A stretch of 45,981 nucleotides of DNA from Gammaproteobacteria bacterium (GTDB taxonomy: Bacteria; Pseudomonadota; Gammaproteobacteria; Beggiatoales; Beggiatoaceae). The stretch spans positions 1 through 45,981 of the forward strand of contig QNES01000014.1 in the NCBI GenBank assembly GCA_003645255.1, given 5' to 3'. Shown here one piece after another: positions 7,818 to 45,981 of the stretch. Every line of letters starts with the position of its first letter. Position 1 is the stretch's first letter. The notes under the pieces are model-generated. The model saw nothing but the letters and a program-made list of their open reading frames with translations, did no database searches and was not told the DNA's origin. The translations under genes and the position numbers were made by a program.

Positions 7818-8525
7818 TTATGGAGGCCATCTGCCAACTGCAGCTAAGCGATTCAATAAAATGTATTTAGGTAACCAAGTTAATAGATCATCAAATTGAT
7901 CTTCTACATATACGTCTTGGACATAGTCGTGCTTATCTCCGATTTCATCATTACTGCATATAGCATCAGAATTAGGGATTCCATCCGCATCATTATCATT
8001 ATCAGGTCGTCCATTTTTACCACAAGAAAAAATAATAGCTACTATGTTAGCTCTATAAGAGCTATCATTGAAAATATTCAATTGATAAGCCTGTCTATCT
8101 GTTACTTTTAGACTGTTTTCTGTTTTTCCCACTGGTGCAGTGATACTTGTATAAATACCATCGCTATTACTAAACCACCCATCCACTCGATAACGAAACG
8201 GATTTCCCCACGCATCATATCTACCGACACCTAAATCAGCCCAAGGCAAATATCCATCTGAATGATCATAAGTATCACATCTCCATCCTTTTAAATCTCT
8301 TCCTGTTTCTTTACCATTGTCATCTACGGCAGGACAAGGTAAATATCCATGAATCACAGCAAATCCTAACAACGCTTCTTTAATTTTTTCTAAACGTTGT
8401 TGAGTAAGTTCGATTCTTTGTTGATCCCAATATTCAGTTAATGGAATCAATAAACTACCTATCAAACTGACAATAACGAATACTAATGCTATTTCAATTA
8501 AAGTAAAACCGTATAATTCTTTCAT
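7818..8525 (-). CDS. Prepilin-like protein with type IV N-methylation signal (third of three)
   Basis: 235 aa. The class III signal MKELYG^FTLIE (cleavage after Gly6, Glu at +5) is followed by a hydrophobic helix to about residue 29 and a coil. The globular part holds a signature shared with the two upstream genes: KEALLGFAVIH, LPCP (62-65), LPWADLGVGRYDAWGNPFRYRV, AIIFSCGKNG and a C-terminal DDLLTWLPKYILLNRLAAVGRWPP. It should be processed by PilD and inserted in a type IV pilus or type II-secretion-like fibre. The subunit role (minor pilin or pseudopilin) cannot be named. Confidence 0.82.
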   Translation of the reverse strand: MKELYGFTLIEIALVFVIVSLIGSLLIPLTEYWDQQRIELTQQRLEKIKEALLGFAVIHGYLPCPAVDDNGKETGRDLKGWRCDTYDHSDGYLPWADLGVGRYDAWGNPFRYRVDGWFSNSDGIYTSITAPVGKTENSLKVTDRQAYQLNIFNDSSYRANIVAIIFSCGKNGRPDNDNDADGIPNSDAICSNDEIGDKHDYVQDVYVEDQFDDLLTWLPKYILLNRLAAVGRWPP

Positions 8526-8547
8526 AATGAATTGCCTTAATGTTTTA

Positions 8548-9192
8548 TCAAGGGAGCCATTTTTTAGCAGCGACTAAACGATTAATTAAAATACTTTTAG
8601 GTAACCAAATTAATATATCATCAAAGGTGTTTTCTACATAGGCATCCTGAGCATAGATGTGATCCACTACACCACTGTTTTCAGCATTGGCTTGTCTATC
8701 TTTACCATAAGAAAATATGATAGCTACCACACGGGAAGTTGTCGTTTCACTTTCTGGAGCAACTAATTTTATAGGTGTCATCAGATGTGTATCCTGCACC
8801 ACTAATCCGCTAGAGGTATTGGGTGGAATGGGAGCAAGTGGATCTGTAGGAACAAGTTGAACTGTATACTTGCTATCAACTCGATAACGAAACGGGTTTC
8901 CCCATGTATCATATCTGCCTACCCCTAAAACTCTCCAAGGTATATTACCTTCATTATTACAAGTTGATTCTAAACCATTTTCATCTGAAGCAGGACAAGG
9001 CAAACGATTGTGCAGGACAGCAAACCCTAACAACGCTTCTTTAATTTCATCTAAACGTTGTTGTGTGATATTGATTCTTTTTTGCTCTATCTGTTTAGGC
9101 AATGGAAATAATAAACTACCCATCAGTAAGCCCAGAATAATTAAAACCAGTGCCATTTCAATTAAAGTAAAACCGAAGACAATTTTCATCAC
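8548..9192 (-). CDS. Prepilin-like protein (second of three)
   Basis: 214 aa with MMKIVFG^FTLIEMA (cleavage after Gly7, Glu12 at +5), a transmembrane segment to about residue 30, then the same globular signature as its neighbours: KEALLGFAVLH, LPCP at 64-67, IPWRVLGVGRYDTWGNPFRYRV, AIIFSYGKD and DDILIWLPKSILINRLVAAKKWLP. Spacing to the flanking prepilin genes is about 20 bp, so the three are one transcription unit. Tandem duplication is evident from order and sequence. Confidence 0.82.
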   Translation of the reverse strand: MMKIVFGFTLIEMALVLIILGLLMGSLLFPLPKQIEQKRINITQQRLDEIKEALLGFAVLHNRLPCPASDENGLESTCNNEGNIPWRVLGVGRYDTWGNPFRYRVDSKYTVQLVPTDPLAPIPPNTSSGLVVQDTHLMTPIKLVAPESETTTSRVVAIIFSYGKDRQANAENSGVVDHIYAQDAYVENTFDDILIWLPKSILINRLVAAKKWLP

Positions 9193-9213
9193 TTTTAAGT
9201 CAGACTATTAGAG

Positions 9214-9834
9214 TTATGGCCATCTTTTGGCGGTGATTAAACGACTCATTAAAGTATTTCTGGGTAACCAGGTTAGAATATCATCAAATTCATTTTCTAC
9301 ATAGCCGTCATACACAAATGTTTTCATTAATAAGTTTGCGTTATCATCATCAGGAACACCATTTTTACCCTGAGAAAAAATGATGGCTGCTACGCGAGAG
9401 TCACTACTGACAATTGTAAAATTATTATCTTGTCTGTTTTTCACCCTTAATCCACTCATTAAAATACTTTTTGAAATATTTGGAATTTCATTAAAATCGG
9501 CTTCTGTTCGATAACGAAAAGGCTTGCCCCAGCCATCATATCTTCCTACGCCTAAATCTTTCCAAGGTAAATAGCCTTCACCATTACTTTCACAATCAGT
9601 TATATTTTTACTTTCTTTACCATTGCCATTTCTATCTGAACAAGGTAAACGCTTATGAATCACAGCAAACCCTAACAATGCCTCTTTAACTTCCTCCAAA
9701 GTTTTTAAGGTGCGTTTGATTTGTTGTCGATCCCTTTGGGCGGATAAGGGCGTTAATAAGCCACCCAAAAAAAAACCGATAATTATCAATACGATAGCCA
9801 TTTCTATGAGGCTAAAACCTTGAAAATTTTTCAT
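9214..9834 (-). CDS. Prepilin-like protein (first of three)
   Basis: 206 aa from the ATG at 9834, which gives a proper class III signal MKNFQG^FSLIEMA (Gly6, Glu11 at +5). Longer in-frame starts up to 9924 would bury the signal in a 30-residue extension and overlap the preceding gene. The globular part shows KEALLGFAVIH, LPCS (63-66), LPWKDLGVGRYDGWGKPFRYR, AAIIFSQGKNGVPDDDN and DDILTWLPRNTLMSRLITAKRW. It is therefore a close paralog of the two following genes, with the fourth residue of the LPCP motif changed to serine. Confidence 0.82.
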   Translation of the reverse strand: MKNFQGFSLIEMAIVLIIIGFFLGGLLTPLSAQRDRQQIKRTLKTLEEVKEALLGFAVIHKRLPCSDRNGNGKESKNITDCESNGEGYLPWKDLGVGRYDGWGKPFRYRTEADFNEIPNISKSILMSGLRVKNRQDNNFTIVSSDSRVAAIIFSQGKNGVPDDDNANLLMKTFVYDGYVENEFDDILTWLPRNTLMSRLITAKRWP

Positions 9835-9893
9835 CACATTATTTACTTTTTTTACTGGCATGATAGAAAAGGTACGATTAATGGAATAGATGC

Positions 9894-11759
9894 TTATGGT
9901 GAGGGCAATGGTGGCTCTGGACAAATAGTCACATTCAAGTCATTATTGATACAGTATAATATATCATTAATATTATTAATATCATGAATATCCTCAGACA
10001 TACCCCATTGTTGATAAATTTCATTTCCCCCAGTCCCACCCGCATTGATATGAATAGCATTATTTCTTTCTAAGTAATTCTCTCCTTTTCTTCTTGTATC
10101 TGAGTCAGTGGGTGGTGCATTGCGGATTTGTCCAGGCAAGCGTTGACCTGCAAACATAACGACAGCGGCATAGTAATTTCCATCATCTATATTCACTTTA
10201 ATACAGTTATTCGTATTACAATTTGGCGTAGTAGCACTTGCATCTGGTTTATGGGCTTCTGCAACAGCATAAAAAAGATGATCTTTCCAGTTTTTCCACA
10301 AATATTCAAATGTCTCAACCGCACGGTTACTATCTTTTACTTCCTGGCATTTTGTTTGATCAGGATTTGTGTTAGTGCATGTTTCTCGTATTTTATATTT
10401 TCCTTCAGATGACGAATAATAATAAGCATAATTATAAAGAGAGCGATCTGCTTGTAAAACATTTTTAGCGTCACATAATAATATTTTTGCTGATTCTGTG
10501 GATCGTAAATCACATTTTTTTAAATTATCAATACTTATAATATTATCGCATATAGGATCAGAAGAAATGCTACTAAAATCGCATAGCGTGATAAGAAAAT
10601 CCGGCAATACTTTATTCACTTCATTAATTTTGCCAATTTGACTATTAGAATCTCTCACATCGTCAGGCAATCGACCTGATAAATAGGTTTCAGTATTATC
10701 GTGATCGTCATATTCTGCATTATAACGATAATCTGTTAAATATACAGGTGCGGGCCAAGGCAAGCGTTTATCACCACTTGAAAAATTAGTATTAGTTTTG
10801 GCATAGTTTGCAACACAGTATGTTGCTATTCTAGTTAAACACCTCATACTATTGTCAAAATCATTACGCTTATAAATAGCCTCAAATAATTCTTCACGGG
10901 TGATATAAACTATCTTGTCATTAATATCGCTCGGATTGTTTTGGGCTCTAATAAATTTAACAATGGTATCAGCATTTATAGGAGAATCAGGATAAATCGG
11001 GGAATTAGAAATATCATTGACGGCAGAGAGGCTCGCATTATTAATGCCATTGACTTGTTCTAGTTCCAGATAATTAGAAGCGGTATAGTTGCCACCACAT
11101 ATTTCAACACCTTTATCATAAGGCACTCTATTACCCAATGTTATATTATCAGTCGGTGTTCTTCTATTTTGATTAGAAAGAATTTTGCCGGGTGCAATAA
11201 TCACGGCAACGGCACGATCTTGCGCTGAAGAACCTGCAAGTTGTAAAGTCTGTGTGCCATCTATGCCAAAAATTTTAAACAAACCATTGGTGTCCTCGTT
11301 AAGCATTTCTGTTCTTGCAGATGCTGTGGTAGCATTTTTGTAAGGACCAGAAACGGCATACCATAGACATTCCCCAGCCCCATCGCGTAATGGTTCCAAT
11401 CCTAAAGTACGCCAAGGAAACCTACCTAAACTGCTTTTATTTCTACCTGTACAGTTACCATGTTCTACACCTTCTGGATACGAGGGCTTTCCTGAACTAT
11501 CCAACTTAGCATCAACATCAGGACAAGGTAAAAAGCCATACATACCTGAATATCGGTCATAATAGCTGGCTGCATACCCAATCAAAGCATCCTTCGCCTG
11601 AGCCAAAGCCCGCGCTGTCTGCACCTGATTTTCCAACACAAAATCGGTGCGATTATTGAGCTTATGTAATAGAATAGCCGTTGTACTTAACAAAAAGATT
11701 GTTAAGAAAACAATTAAAGCAACACCGGATTGTCTGTCGTAAAATTGACGCATATTCAT
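9894..11759 (-). CDS. Large PilX-like minor pilin/pilus-assembly protein
   Basis: 621 aa. The N-terminus (MNMRQFYDRQSGVALIVFL) has a short basic leader and one hydrophobic helix, as in PilX/PilV-type minor pilins and GspK-like proteins. After it comes ALAQAKDALIGYAASYYDR, then GFLPCPDVDAKL, GRFPWRTLGLEPLRDGAGECLW and AVAVIIAPGK. These are the same motifs as in the three small prepilins, followed by about 400 extra residues rich in N, D and cysteine. The end of the protein (KRKGENYLERNN-like) has no recognised domain. The ATG at 11753 is equally possible; the frame's upstream extension to 11798 overlaps the preceding gene. Confidence 0.7.
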   Translation of the reverse strand: MNMRQFYDRQSGVALIVFLTIFLLSTTAILLHKLNNRTDFVLENQVQTARALAQAKDALIGYAASYYDRYSGMYGFLPCPDVDAKLDSSGKPSYPEGVEHGNCTGRNKSSLGRFPWRTLGLEPLRDGAGECLWYAVSGPYKNATTASARTEMLNEDTNGLFKIFGIDGTQTLQLAGSSAQDRAVAVIIAPGKILSNQNRRTPTDNITLGNRVPYDKGVEICGGNYTASNYLELEQVNGINNASLSAVNDISNSPIYPDSPINADTIVKFIRAQNNPSDINDKIVYITREELFEAIYKRNDFDNSMRCLTRIATYCVANYAKTNTNFSSGDKRLPWPAPVYLTDYRYNAEYDDHDNTETYLSGRLPDDVRDSNSQIGKINEVNKVLPDFLITLCDFSSISSDPICDNIISIDNLKKCDLRSTESAKILLCDAKNVLQADRSLYNYAYYYSSSEGKYKIRETCTNTNPDQTKCQEVKDSNRAVETFEYLWKNWKDHLFYAVAEAHKPDASATTPNCNTNNCIKVNIDDGNYYAAVVMFAGQRLPGQIRNAPPTDSDTRRKGENYLERNNAIHINAGGTGGNEIYQQWGMSEDIHDINNINDILYCINNDLNVTICPEPPLPSP

Positions 11760-17017: not shown

Positions 17018-17173
17018 CTCGACTATCAAGTTTTTGATATTATTTGGCTTTGGGAAGCTCTATTTTTGAATGTTAAAATAGCTAACTCATTGATTTTTAA
17101 ACTTATTTAATTTTTAGACCTAAAATGATATATCTTTTTAAATCAAGGATTTATAAAAAACTTGATAGTCGAG
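17018..17173. mobile_element. MITE family A copy 1
   Basis: 156 bp bounded by CTCGACTATCAAGTTTTTGA and its complement TTGATAGTCGAG. Interior contains TTATTTGGCTTTG and AGCTCTATTTTTGA, common to all A copies. Flanks CTTAA/TTTAA are a near-perfect 5-bp duplication. Confidence 0.75.
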
Positions 17174-21814: not shown

Positions 21815-21972
21815 CTTGATTATCAAGTTTTTGATGTTATTTGGCTTTGCGAAGCTCTATTTTTGAATGTTAAAATAGCTAACTCATTGATTTTTAAGCT
21901 TATTTAATTTTTAGGTCTAAAATTATATTTCTTTTTAAATCAAGGACATTTATAAAAAATGTGATAGTCAAG
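21815..21972. mobile_element. MITE family A copy 3
   Basis: 158 bp, CTTGATTATCAAGTTTTTGA to GTGATAGTCAAG, with the TTATTTGGCTTTG and AGCTCTATTTTTGA interior. Flanks TTAGA/TTATA differ at one base. Confidence 0.7.
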
Positions 21973-40447: not shown

Positions 40448-40603
40448 CTCGACTATCAAGTTTTTTATAAGTCATTGATTTAAAAATAAATATAATTTTT
40501 GACCTAAAAACTAAATAACCTTAAAAATCAAGGAGTTGGCTATTTTAACACTCAAAAATAGAGCTTTGCAAGGCCAAATAACATCAAAAACTTGATAGTC
40601 GAG
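40448..40603. mobile_element. MITE family A copy 4, with perfect 5-bp target duplication
   Basis: 156 bp, CTCGACTATCAAGTTTTTTA to AACTTGATAGTCGAG, flanked by TGACA at 40443-40447 and 40604-40608. The target is the CCTGACAGG palindrome; its halves GACCTGACA and GGTTTTAGAAACCTGTC now sit either side. Confidence 0.82.
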
Positions 40604-40830: not shown

Positions 40831-40986
40831 CTTGATGATCAAGTTTTTGATGTTATTTGGCTTTAAGATGATCGATTTTTAGGGTCTAAAATAGGTAACT
40901 TACTGATTTTCAAGCTAATTTATTTTTAGCCCCTAAAATAATATTTATTTTAAAATCAATCACTTACAAAAAATTTGATCATCAAG
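40831..40986. mobile_element. MITE family A copy 5 (diverged)
   Basis: 156 bp, CTTGATGATCAAGTTTTTGA to AATTTGATCATCAAG, with TTATTTGGCTTTA and CTTACTGATTTTCAAG in the interior. No clear target duplication; more diverged than the other copies. Confidence 0.65.
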
Positions 40987-42573: not shown

Positions 42574-42807
42574 TTACTTGACTTTTACCATCAATTCCAC
42601 AGTGCCCCAAAATTTTACCCCTGGCTTCCCATTTGCAGCTTCTTTGATAAATATCTCCCAATCTATAGGCTCACTCGTTACTATTGCTTTAAAATATTCT
42701 TGCCCCACTTCTAAATTTATTTGCTTCACTGTTGCAACAGACGATTGTCCAGTCAATTGACCATATATTTTTCCTACTTCAACTGGCTCACTGAAAATCA
42801 TCGCTAA
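42574..42807 (-). pseudogene. 3' gene fragment cut by the ISAzo13 element
   Basis: About 77 codons (AMIFSEPVEVGKIYGQLTGQ, SSVATVKQINLEVGQEYFKA, IVTSEPIDWEIFIKEA .. VELMVKVK) between the inserted IS and a stop at 42574. The EYFKAIVTSEPIDW stretch resembles the end of DUF4384-type domains. The apparent 104-residue frame begins inside the IS (42888), so that start is an artefact. Joining the flank across the IS keeps the frame with the fragment at 44121-44182. Confidence 0.5.
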
Positions 42808-44120
42808 GGAATTAGGATTTAATAATATCCCAAACTTTGGATTCAGTAGGAACAGCAACATAATTCCATTTAGGCAAAAATTCATCAAATTTAATTTTCA
42901 GATTTTTTTTAAAGTCATCAGCATATTTACGTCCCGTTTCAAAAGTTTTATCAAGGATAGAACTAAACACTTTCAATCCTTTAGAAGTTGAAGTTTTACC
43001 GATTAAATTATTTGCTATCTCAACCGTTTTGAAAATGGCTCCTTTGCAAGCTCTTGTAATATGAGAAAATAACCTATGTTCTATCGGATTGTATTTTGAT
43101 GTATATGGTGGATAATGAGCAATACGAATTTCAATATCTAAATCATTGGATAATTTTTGTAAATCCTCTTTGAAAATATAATAACGAGCATTATTACTAC
43201 CACCACAATCACTTCGTTCTAACAACTTTTTTGAATTTTGGTATTCAATTTGACCATGATTTAACCACCATTGACGAATACATTCACAGGCAAATTCAGA
43301 TGTATCATTACTAAGACCTAAAGTTATATAACCAACATGACGATGTACATCATATAGTCCATGAGGAACCATTTTTCCATCAGCTTGTGAGGCAAAATCA
43401 TGATCATAAACATTTATAATATCTTGCGTATAAACTTTGCCATCACGAAAAAAATTTCCGATTAATTCTTTCTTTTTTACATCCATACTCATAACGGGAT
43501 TTCCGGCATCATGATATTCTTGATTGAGACGTTCAATATTTTTAAATTGCTCATCACGATCAGGAATGTTTTTTTTACCAGCTTCTGATTTAAATGCTTG
43601 ACGGCGACAAAATTTATGTTTTTTTAACAGTTTATCAAAAACTGTCACACTGACTGGAAACCCTTTATCTTTGAGCTTGTTAGCAATAGTTCGACGAGAT
43701 AAGTTTGTCCATTTTATCGTTTCATCCATTGGAGAGCCTGCTGTATGGTCTTCTATTACTTCTAAAAAAGCTTCATCTATACCTTCCATTGTTTCTATGA
43801 TTGATAAACGTCCAGCACCAGGTTGTCTAATCCTATCATTTTCTTTAGATATATCTAATTCTAAATCTTGTTTACCATGTAAAATGGTACGATTATCACA
43901 ATTAAACAGGTGTCGTATATAACTGGCTCCACCATAACCGAGCTTTGGAGCGATGATAGCAGCTTCACTACGGCGGTCTTTTTCTGATAAACTATTATAG
44001 AAGTCGCGCATTTTGATTTCAATTTCTGGAGAGTATGTTTGTATTTTCATGGATGCGTATGATACACAATTTGGCATTTTTTGCCAACTTAGTTTGGGAT
44101 TTTATAAAATCCTCATTCCT
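42808..44120 (-). mobile_element. ISAzo13-family insertion sequence
   Basis: 1.3 kb element. Its ends form an inverted repeat of 30 bp with 27 matches: AGGAATTAGGATTTAATAAT at 42808 and, on the other strand, AGGAATGAGGATTTTATAAA at 44120, both continuing ATCCCAAACT. It has a single transposase gene. No convincing target duplication; at most 1 bp. The family call rests on the transposase. Confidence 0.8.
42812..44050 (-). CDS. ISAzo13-family transposase
   Basis: 412 aa from ATG 44050 (MKIQTYSPEIEIKMRDFYNS); the ATG at 44077 adds nine residues. Recognised by LSEKDRRSEAAIIAPKLGYGG, DHTAGSPMDETIKWTNLSRR, GFPVSVTVFDKLLKKH, and the catalytic part: MDVKKKELIGNFF (first Asp), SDCGGSNNARYYIFKEDL (second Asp), HYPPYTSKYNPIEHRLF (Glu), then WNYVAVPTE at the end. 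The frame is complete and may be active. The stop lies 4 bp inside the IS end. Confidence 0.93.
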   Translation of the reverse strand: MKIQTYSPEIEIKMRDFYNSLSEKDRRSEAAIIAPKLGYGGASYIRHLFNCDNRTILHGKQDLELDISKENDRIRQPGAGRLSIIETMEGIDEAFLEVIEDHTAGSPMDETIKWTNLSRRTIANKLKDKGFPVSVTVFDKLLKKHKFCRRQAFKSEAGKKNIPDRDEQFKNIERLNQEYHDAGNPVMSMDVKKKELIGNFFRDGKVYTQDIINVYDHDFASQADGKMVPHGLYDVHRHVGYITLGLSNDTSEFACECIRQWWLNHGQIEYQNSKKLLERSDCGGSNNARYYIFKEDLQKLSNDLDIEIRIAHYPPYTSKYNPIEHRLFSHITRACKGAIFKTVEIANNLIGKTSTSKGLKVFSSILDKTFETGRKYADDFKKNLKIKFDEFLPKWNYVAVPTESKVWDIIKS

Positions 44121-44605: not shown

Positions 44606-45466
44606 TTATAACTGTTCTAATATTTCTTTGAACGCCTGTGCGATTTCTTCATAAGTGTTTGAACAGAGTGCTTTCTTTTTCGGATTGTTCGGATCAGGAC
44701 AGATATAACCCGCTTTAGAAAAAGTCAGTGATTTCGCGAAGATTTTTTGGTGTATTTTGCTTATACTCGATCTTCTAGTTTTTGATGTTATTTGGCTTTG
44801 TAAAGCTTTATTTTTGAGCCTTGAAATATACAACTCATTGATTTTTAAGGTTATTTAGTTTTTAGACCTAAAATTATATTTCTTTTAAAATCAATGGTTT
44901 ACAAAAAACTAGAAGATCGAGTTATAACAATAGGTTTCACCTGAATCTTTTCTGGCTCGTCAATAAATTGACCGGTCACAATGAAATCCACTCCGGTAGG
45001 TTCCATCATTTCTTTGATGATTTTCAGGTTTCTTTCAGCCGGTGTCAGATTAGGATCGAAAATTAAATCAACCAGTTTATTGACATTTCCTGCTGTGTCC
45101 TTAATTGTGTGACCAGGCGCATTAAATTTAATGACAGGATGTAATTTCGTGGCTTGCACAATGAGAGCTACCATAGCATCATTGAGCAATTCAGATTCTG
45201 TGGTTGGTATGTGACAACGAGTTTTAGCATCTATAAAACTCAGGTTTGGTAACATAAAAAGGACCTTGCTCAGGTGGAAATTTAGCCTCTAAGTTCTCCA
45301 CTACCACATCAATAAGGGATTGACTCACAGGACACTCTTGCTGCCCCATCAGAAGTGGAAGAAACATAACAATAACAAATAGCTGAATAATGGGGATTTT
45401 TTCATCCCTTTGAGATTGAGTTTCATTGGGTTTGTTCTCAGTTTTTATTGATTCTGATTCAGACAA
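44606..45466 (-). pseudogene. Exported protein gene, broken by a MITE and a probable frameshift
   Basis: Pieces in order: residues 1-80 from 45466 (charged N-terminus, hydrophobic IIQLFVIVMFLPLLMG), then from 45255 another frame (FIDAKTRCHIPTTESELLND .. GVDFIVTGQFIDEPEKIQVK .. PIVI), then after element A the tail SKIHQKIFAKSLTFSKAGYI .. NTYEEIAQAFKEILEQL. The frame change is near a T-run at 45250 (GPF followed by MLPNLSF). The IVTGQFID..KIQVKPIVI pattern recalls LpoB/FlgO/CsgG-like periplasmic proteins. The gene at 45496 is a paralog. Function unknown. Confidence 0.6.
44766..44921. mobile_element. MITE family A copy 6, inside a gene
   Basis: 156 bp, CTCGATCTTCTAGTTTTTGA to CAAAAAACTAGAAGATCGAG, flanked by TTATA on both sides (44761-44765 and 44922-44926). 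Interior TTATTTGGCTTTG and TTATTTTTGAGCC as in the other A copies. The inner part of its terminal repeat (ATCTTCTAG) differs from other copies but equally on both ends. Confidence 0.85.
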
Positions 45467-45495: not shown

Positions 45496-45750
45496 TTATA
45501 ATTGCTCTAACAACAACTCTTTAACCGTCTGCGTGATTTCTTCATAAGTATTTGAACATAAAGCCCTTTTCTTAGGATTAACTGGATCAGCACAAATATA
45601 TTCATTTTTTAAGAATATCAATGACTTAGCGACAATTTTTTGACTTTTCTTAATAATGATAAAAGGCTTCACCTTGATCTTTTCTTGATCGTCAACAAAT
45701 TGACCGGTGACAATAACATCCACCTGAGCAGGTACCATCATTTCATTAGA
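45496..45750 (-). pseudogene. Paralog of the 44606 gene, 5' part removed by an IS
   Basis: 81 residues from EMMVPAQVDVIVTGQFVDDQ through KIKVKPFIIIKKSQKIVAKS to NEYICADPVNPKKRALCSNTYEEI. It aligns with the tail of the neighbouring gene at about two residues in three. The visible ATG is the MM of an internal motif (EMM in both), so the true 5' part has been cut off at the IS-like end at 45745. Confidence 0.6.
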
Positions 45751-45791
45751 CTTGTCCCGAAATAATAGCTTATAAAGTATTAGACTTGTCC
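45745..45791. repeat. Two ATTAGACTTGTCC copies at an IS boundary
   Basis: ATTAGACTTGTCC at 45745-45757 and again at 45779-45791, 34 bp apart, just beyond the end of the partial transposase. One is probably the terminal repeat of that IS; the other may be a remnant of an earlier insertion. Confidence 0.5.
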
Positions 45792-45864
45792 GTCAATAAA
45801 ATTTTAGCTAATAAAAACAAATAGTTAGATTCACAAAACCCTTATTTTCGGACAACTCTATTGA

Positions 45865-45981
45865 TTAACAACGTATTTTTAAATTCCATAATCCCGCCAC
45901 TTGAAAAATAACTTCATCAACCCAATTTTTAGTTATACGGTTACGAAATTTTGTGGATAAAATTTGGAAAGCTTTCATACC
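45865..45981 (-). CDS. C-terminal end of an IS5-like DDE transposase (partial)
   Basis: 38 codons to a TAA at 45865-45867; the 5' part lies beyond the window. MKAFQILSTKFRNRITKNWV and QVAGLWNLKIR match the closing helices of IS5/IS1182-like and DDE superfamily endonuclease transposases (pattern K-F-ILS-KFRNR ... AG-WN). Its element seems to have cut the gene at 45496-45750. Confidence 0.65.
   Translation of the reverse strand, partial: GMKAFQILSTKFRNRITKNWVDEVIFQVAGLWNLKIRC

Follow-up and report, generated by a model that had tools for sequence, protein, structure and literature searches.

A gene for an uncharacterised Beggiatoaceae protein is interrupted by a 156-bp non-coding sequence, which is very probably a non-autonomous DNA transposon (MITE) that was inserted by a transposase supplied in trans, through 5-bp staggered cuts. 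As a MITE the element belongs to a known class; the interesting part is the concerted change of its two ends in related copies, together with the missing transposase. The window, by which we mean the whole stretch of 45,981 nucleotides analysed here, is contig C14 of a 4.4-Mb assembly of 313 contigs. Among the named members of the collection, Candidatus Parabeggiatoa sp. nov. 3 stands closest when judged by one protein, with 85% amino-acid identity, which points to a sulfur bacterium of the Beggiatoaceae.

The interrupted gene and its empty site

The element has no open frame running through it, the 18 bases at either terminus form perfect inverted repeats (CTCGATCTTCTAGTTTTT), and TTATA stands on either flank. 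The features at this locus are as follows.

44606-44765, minus strand: portion of the interrupted gene for the C-terminus, out of frame owing to the 161-bp insertion
44761-44765, plus strand: left copy of the 5-bp target duplication TTATA
44766-44921, plus strand: 156-bp MITE, a copy of element A, with perfect 18-nt terminal inverted repeats
44766-44783, plus strand: left terminal inverted repeat CTCGATCTTCTAGTTTTT
44904-44921, minus strand: right terminal inverted repeat CTCGATCTTCTAGTTTTT
44922-44926, plus strand: right copy of the 5-bp target duplication TTATA
44927-45255, minus strand: portion of the interrupted gene for the N-terminus (uncharacterised protein without a Pfam match)
45496-45741, minus strand: paralog without the insertion, though truncated, which served as reference for the empty site

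The 161 added base pairs (element plus duplication) throw the gene out of frame. Read on the minus strand, the upstream frame passes from ...VKPIVI into seven element-coded residues (TRSSSFL) and then meets a stop. When the flanks are joined with a single TTATA, they form one open frame, ...DEPEKIQVKPIVISKIHQKIFAKSLTFSKAGYICPDPNNPKKKALCSNTYEEIAQAFKEILEQL*, with the junction part ...IQVKPIVISKIHQKIFAKSLTFSKAGYICPDPNNPKKKALCSNTYEEIAQAFKEILEQL, and this frame aligns to the paralog without a gap across the junction. The coordinates, the MITE identity with its exact borders, and the frame restored upon removal of the element and one TTATA, all of which had been put forward in a preliminary description of this DNA, are thus upheld. 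By that description, an uninterrupted relative that lacks continuity at this point would speak against the insertion; the joined frame is gap-free at the junction against all uninterrupted homologues aligned, which come from the same genome and two other genera (G000:C106, L248, the overlapping L250/L253, and L252; G018:C63, L247, L249 and L251; G017:C102, L246). As an example, the homologue reads RPFVVSKSKKSIVSKN against KPIVISKIHQKIFAKS of the window. A Pfam search of the protein of the interrupted gene gave no confident domain match, and in one of its homologues an LprI domain is located upstream.

The target gene has a second lesion, an apparent one-base frameshift near 45240-45250, where the homologues read YVTHLTFMDA and the window splits the same segment over two frames (FYVTKPEFYRC* and FMLPNLSFIDA). 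This frameshift may be real or an assembly error, and in view of it the element may have landed in an already decaying gene. The same lesion bears on the possibility that the insertion itself was produced by the assembly, through collapse or faulty joining of a repeat within the gene. The assembly is fragmented, contigs of the relatives often end at such element ends, and the other frameshift of the gene could likewise have arisen in assembly; however, a precise 5-bp duplication, gap-free continuity of the frame and the same pattern in other assembled genomes leave this explanation with practically no chance of being right. The mobility of the element was previously presented as directly proven. 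It is strongly supported by the data given here, but "direct proof" slightly overstates the case, since neither an empty orthologous site from this species nor an actual transposition was observed, and the second lesion is present in the gene.

The paralog is cut off as well: its similarity is lost at about 45747, beside a TTAGACTTGTCC repeat read from the sequence. This repeat (window 45740-45981), which truncates the paralog, is probably another mobile element.

Copies of element A and neighbouring repeats

Element A has 25 matches in the source genome (G000), and further copies were found in G001, G002, G019 and G023. The best other copy of the element (C43:1712-1867, 99%) differs from it at two of 156 bases and sits at another target with its own perfect duplication, TGTAA. 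The near identity of this copy, together with the perfect TTATA duplication and the clean paralog, supports an insertion that took place after the two gene copies had diverged, in agreement with the order of events proposed earlier. The other copies in the window are as follows.

17018-17173, plus strand: element A copy, flanks CTTAA/TTTAA
17252-17364, minus strand: truncated element A copy
21815-21972, plus strand: copy of element A in the fusA-tuf spacer, flanks TTAGA/TTATA
40448-40603, minus strand: copy of element A in the rpoA-rplQ spacer, with TGACA perfectly duplicated
40831-40986, plus strand: copy of element A in the rpoA-rplQ spacer, flanks TTAAA/ATACA (decayed)

The last three are located in spacers of ribosomal-protein operons, and transcription would run through them. 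A gene that resembles hypF by eye is shortened directly ahead of a truncated element A copy (L088:2576-3093).

The copies in ribosomal-protein operons, and the predicted fold of one copy taken alone, which is far more stable than that of shuffled sequence (z about -7 to -8), could speak for a structured regulatory or RNA repeat that is kept for its fold and is not a transposon. Such a fold did not withstand comparison of the copies. RNAalifold on 25 copies retains the terminal inverted-repeat stem as the sole common structure, with compensatory changes, and rejects any conserved fold beyond it; the internal hairpin is often broken, and its covariation is confined to one pair in one sequence, so that the interior takes no part in the concerted change described below. 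No Rfam match was obtained, and neither a 5-bp duplication nor insertion into a gene is expected of an RNA repeat, which makes this origin very unlikely.

Several other repeats were observed in the window. An ISAzo13-family transposase gene (42812-44077, minus strand) lies between 30-nt inverted arms at 42807-42836 and 44091-44120, and the segment 42807-44120, which lies near the interrupted gene, is probably a complete insertion sequence. Dispersed repeats besides element A are found at 17482-17614/35000-35132, 38604-38697/40151-40244 and 35203-35273/40757-40827, and three adjacent, related prepilin-like genes at 7818-9924 (direct repeats D2-D4) are apparently tandem duplicates.

Target duplication across the family

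Flanking sequences were compared for 30 element copies with both ends, taken from the source genome, two further genomes of its genus and two from elsewhere in the family. An exact 5-bp duplication is present in 17 of the 30, whereas re-pairing of flanks among the copies would give 1.4 (binomial P about 1e-15), and chance is thus excluded. Other repeat lengths are nearly absent at the same copies (one case each of 4 and 6 bp, none of 3, 7 or 8 bp). The 5-bp duplication claimed for the family is therefore confirmed, and a consistently different length, which had been named as evidence against it, did not emerge. Of the 17 duplicated words, 16 have T as their first base and all 17 have A as their last, giving the consensus TNNNA. 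The lack of a perfect duplication in the other 13 copies is attributed to decay or deletion at the ends.

The duplication bears directly on the type of transposition. The element could be read as a single-stranded HUH element (IS200/IS605-like or REP/RAYT-like) related to palindrome-associated elements (PATEs), the hairpins at its ends being the recognised structures. Each end is indeed imperfectly palindromic around a 3-nt spacer, with T5 after it, and in one relative (G048:C294, L353) a gene that looks RAYT-like by eye is located near such ends. HUH transposition, however, is not known to make a target duplication, and an exact one was found in 17 of 30 copies; moreover, the ends are inverted and do not form distinct left and right hairpins. 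We consider this reading highly improbable, and the 5-bp duplications do not fit an IS200/IS605-type element (PATE) as such. Nor do 5-bp duplications such as TGACA and TTATA fit an IS630-derived MITE, which would have a TA duplication. Tn3-derived miniature elements (TIME) have ends of about 38 bp that begin with GGGG, and a 5-bp duplication; the ends described here are 18 bp long and begin with CTCGA, so that the agreement is in duplication length only.

Shared ends and their concerted change

At each end of the element, the 13 outermost bases make up an imperfect palindrome (CTYGA-NNN-TCRAG), and T5 comes next. Exact matches to CTYGA-NNN-TCRAG-TTTTT were found in 25 of 43 genomes from the family, with up to 169 sites per genome, and a control search with the reversed pattern gave zero sites in the 43 genomes. 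Many elements whose interiors (85-415 bp) are unrelated to one another have these ends in common, likewise with perfect 5-bp duplications.

The 3-nt core varies among copies (CTA, TGA, TCA, TCT, TGT), and it varies in step at both ends. Both cores of one copy are identical in 23 of 30 copies, against 6.5 by re-pairing (permutation P about 5e-5), and in 39 of 44 when counted by eye among the end pairs listed. In full-length 156-bp copies, 93% of the differences at the left end are mirrored at the right end, and in each of the 118 mirrored cases the match is perfect in both compared copies, these comparisons being not independent because the copies fall into subfamilies. Insertion with a target duplication is ordinary for such elements; the matched change of the two ends of relatives is unusual. 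It could result either from selection by the transposase for matched ends or from hairpin-mediated copying of one end onto the other. A broader proposal, to which we would give about one chance in a few, is that a Beggiatoaceae-wide clan of MITEs with the single palindromic end CTYGA-NNN-TCRAG-TTTTT, and a lineage-varying core that changes in step at both ends, represents an undescribed IS family making 5-bp TNNNA duplications, by way of core-reading transposase variants or end-to-end copying.

Other repeats were seen as well. The region L219:1-5300 contains several MITEs and fragments, most of them bounded by TAATA, inside TTACC/GGTAATA repeats. Short palindromes of about 41 bp (TTCGAGGTTCAAGTTTTT...AAAAACTTGAACCTCGAA) are abundant in L228, L242, L329 and L335; they are from the same genus and belong to a different repeat class.

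Search for an autonomous partner

An autonomous transposase with the same ends had been suggested as a way to follow up the element. The source genome and its relatives were searched by listed end positions, pairing of ends and transposase neighbourhoods, and no transposase between such ends was found. For the richest genomes, the end positions screened were those among the matches listed, and duplication-aware pairing was applied to about 120 stretches, the pairing in the source genome being likewise on stretches. Many contigs of the relatives end at such ends, and an autonomous copy could thus be lost in assembly gaps.

Individual candidates were examined and rejected. The IS1634 element of G002 is bounded by a different inverted repeat, containing ATAACCTACATTTCGCAGTTA. 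For IS1380, none of five PF13701 loci is flanked by such ends, and the source genome has no PF13701 match; DDE_Tnp_1 transposases are not flanked by them either. G000:C11:1-145 (L103) encodes a transposase-like C-terminus followed by 26 bp of element A, and is a separate element because its other copies end at base 122-126; by eye, it appears to be an IS630-like insertion sequence nested at TA inside a MITE end. The 1260-bp stretch G002:C30:917-2176 (L260), between perfect ends of the same class with flanks TAACA/TTACA, has no transposase. It contains a 254-aa glutamine-amidotransferase-like gene, a possible passenger between MITE ends. Judged by eye, the genes in the end-bounded intervals G024:C352 (3.6 kb) and G024:C360 (about 5 kb) are ordinary cellular ones, and cellular genes also lie inward of the unpaired ends at 40 loci with such ends in G001, G002 and G018.

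Comparison with known elements and proposed mechanism

The element is short, lacks a transposase gene, and has terminal inverted repeats, a duplication of fixed length and multiple dispersed copies, as is characteristic of MITEs. Bacterial MITEs in general are non-coding, have inverted ends and a target duplication, and are presumably mobilised in trans (review PMC10969869; e.g., MITEAba12, PMC6382973); element A agrees with them in these properties, and differs in its palindromic ends, whose variable core changes together on the left and the right. Two MITEs have been described in Candidatus Thiomargarita nelsonii (Flood et al. 2016, PMC4853749). The hupL family is a short non-coding element with inverted repeats of about 19 bp and very many copies, which interrupts a gene and for which no parental IS was found. 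Element A resembles it in all these respects, and likewise belongs to a large sulfur bacterium, but it is set apart, by the published description, by 5-bp direct repeats in place of 10-bp ones that have one base in common with the inverted repeat. Like element A, the MITE of the dsrA intron has inverted repeats between 5-base direct repeats and is dispersed, at mostly intergenic sites; its direct repeat TATAG is a fixed terminal motif, compared by the authors with IS630 and Correia elements, whereas the duplication described here is variable (TNNNA) and lies outside the inverted repeat.

From these data we infer cut-and-paste transposition by a DDE-type enzyme supplied in trans. A transposase, most likely of the DDE type, would bind both 18-bp ends, including the palindrome formed by their outer 13 bases. 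It would pair the ends, excise the element and join it to a TNNNA target with a 5-bp stagger, and gap filling by host repair would leave the 5-bp duplication; the landing site would in this case have been the gene for the uncharacterised Beggiatoaceae protein.

The genomes of giant sulfur bacteria are noted for mobile elements, and their repeats are mostly uncharacterised. Here the exact borders, duplication length and target preference are given for one abundant repeat of these organisms, and its ends, written as CTYGAYNNTCRAGTTTTT, provide a search key for the missing transposase. With the concerted change of its ends, this family makes a testable case, either for ends and transposase evolving together or for the copying of one end onto the other.
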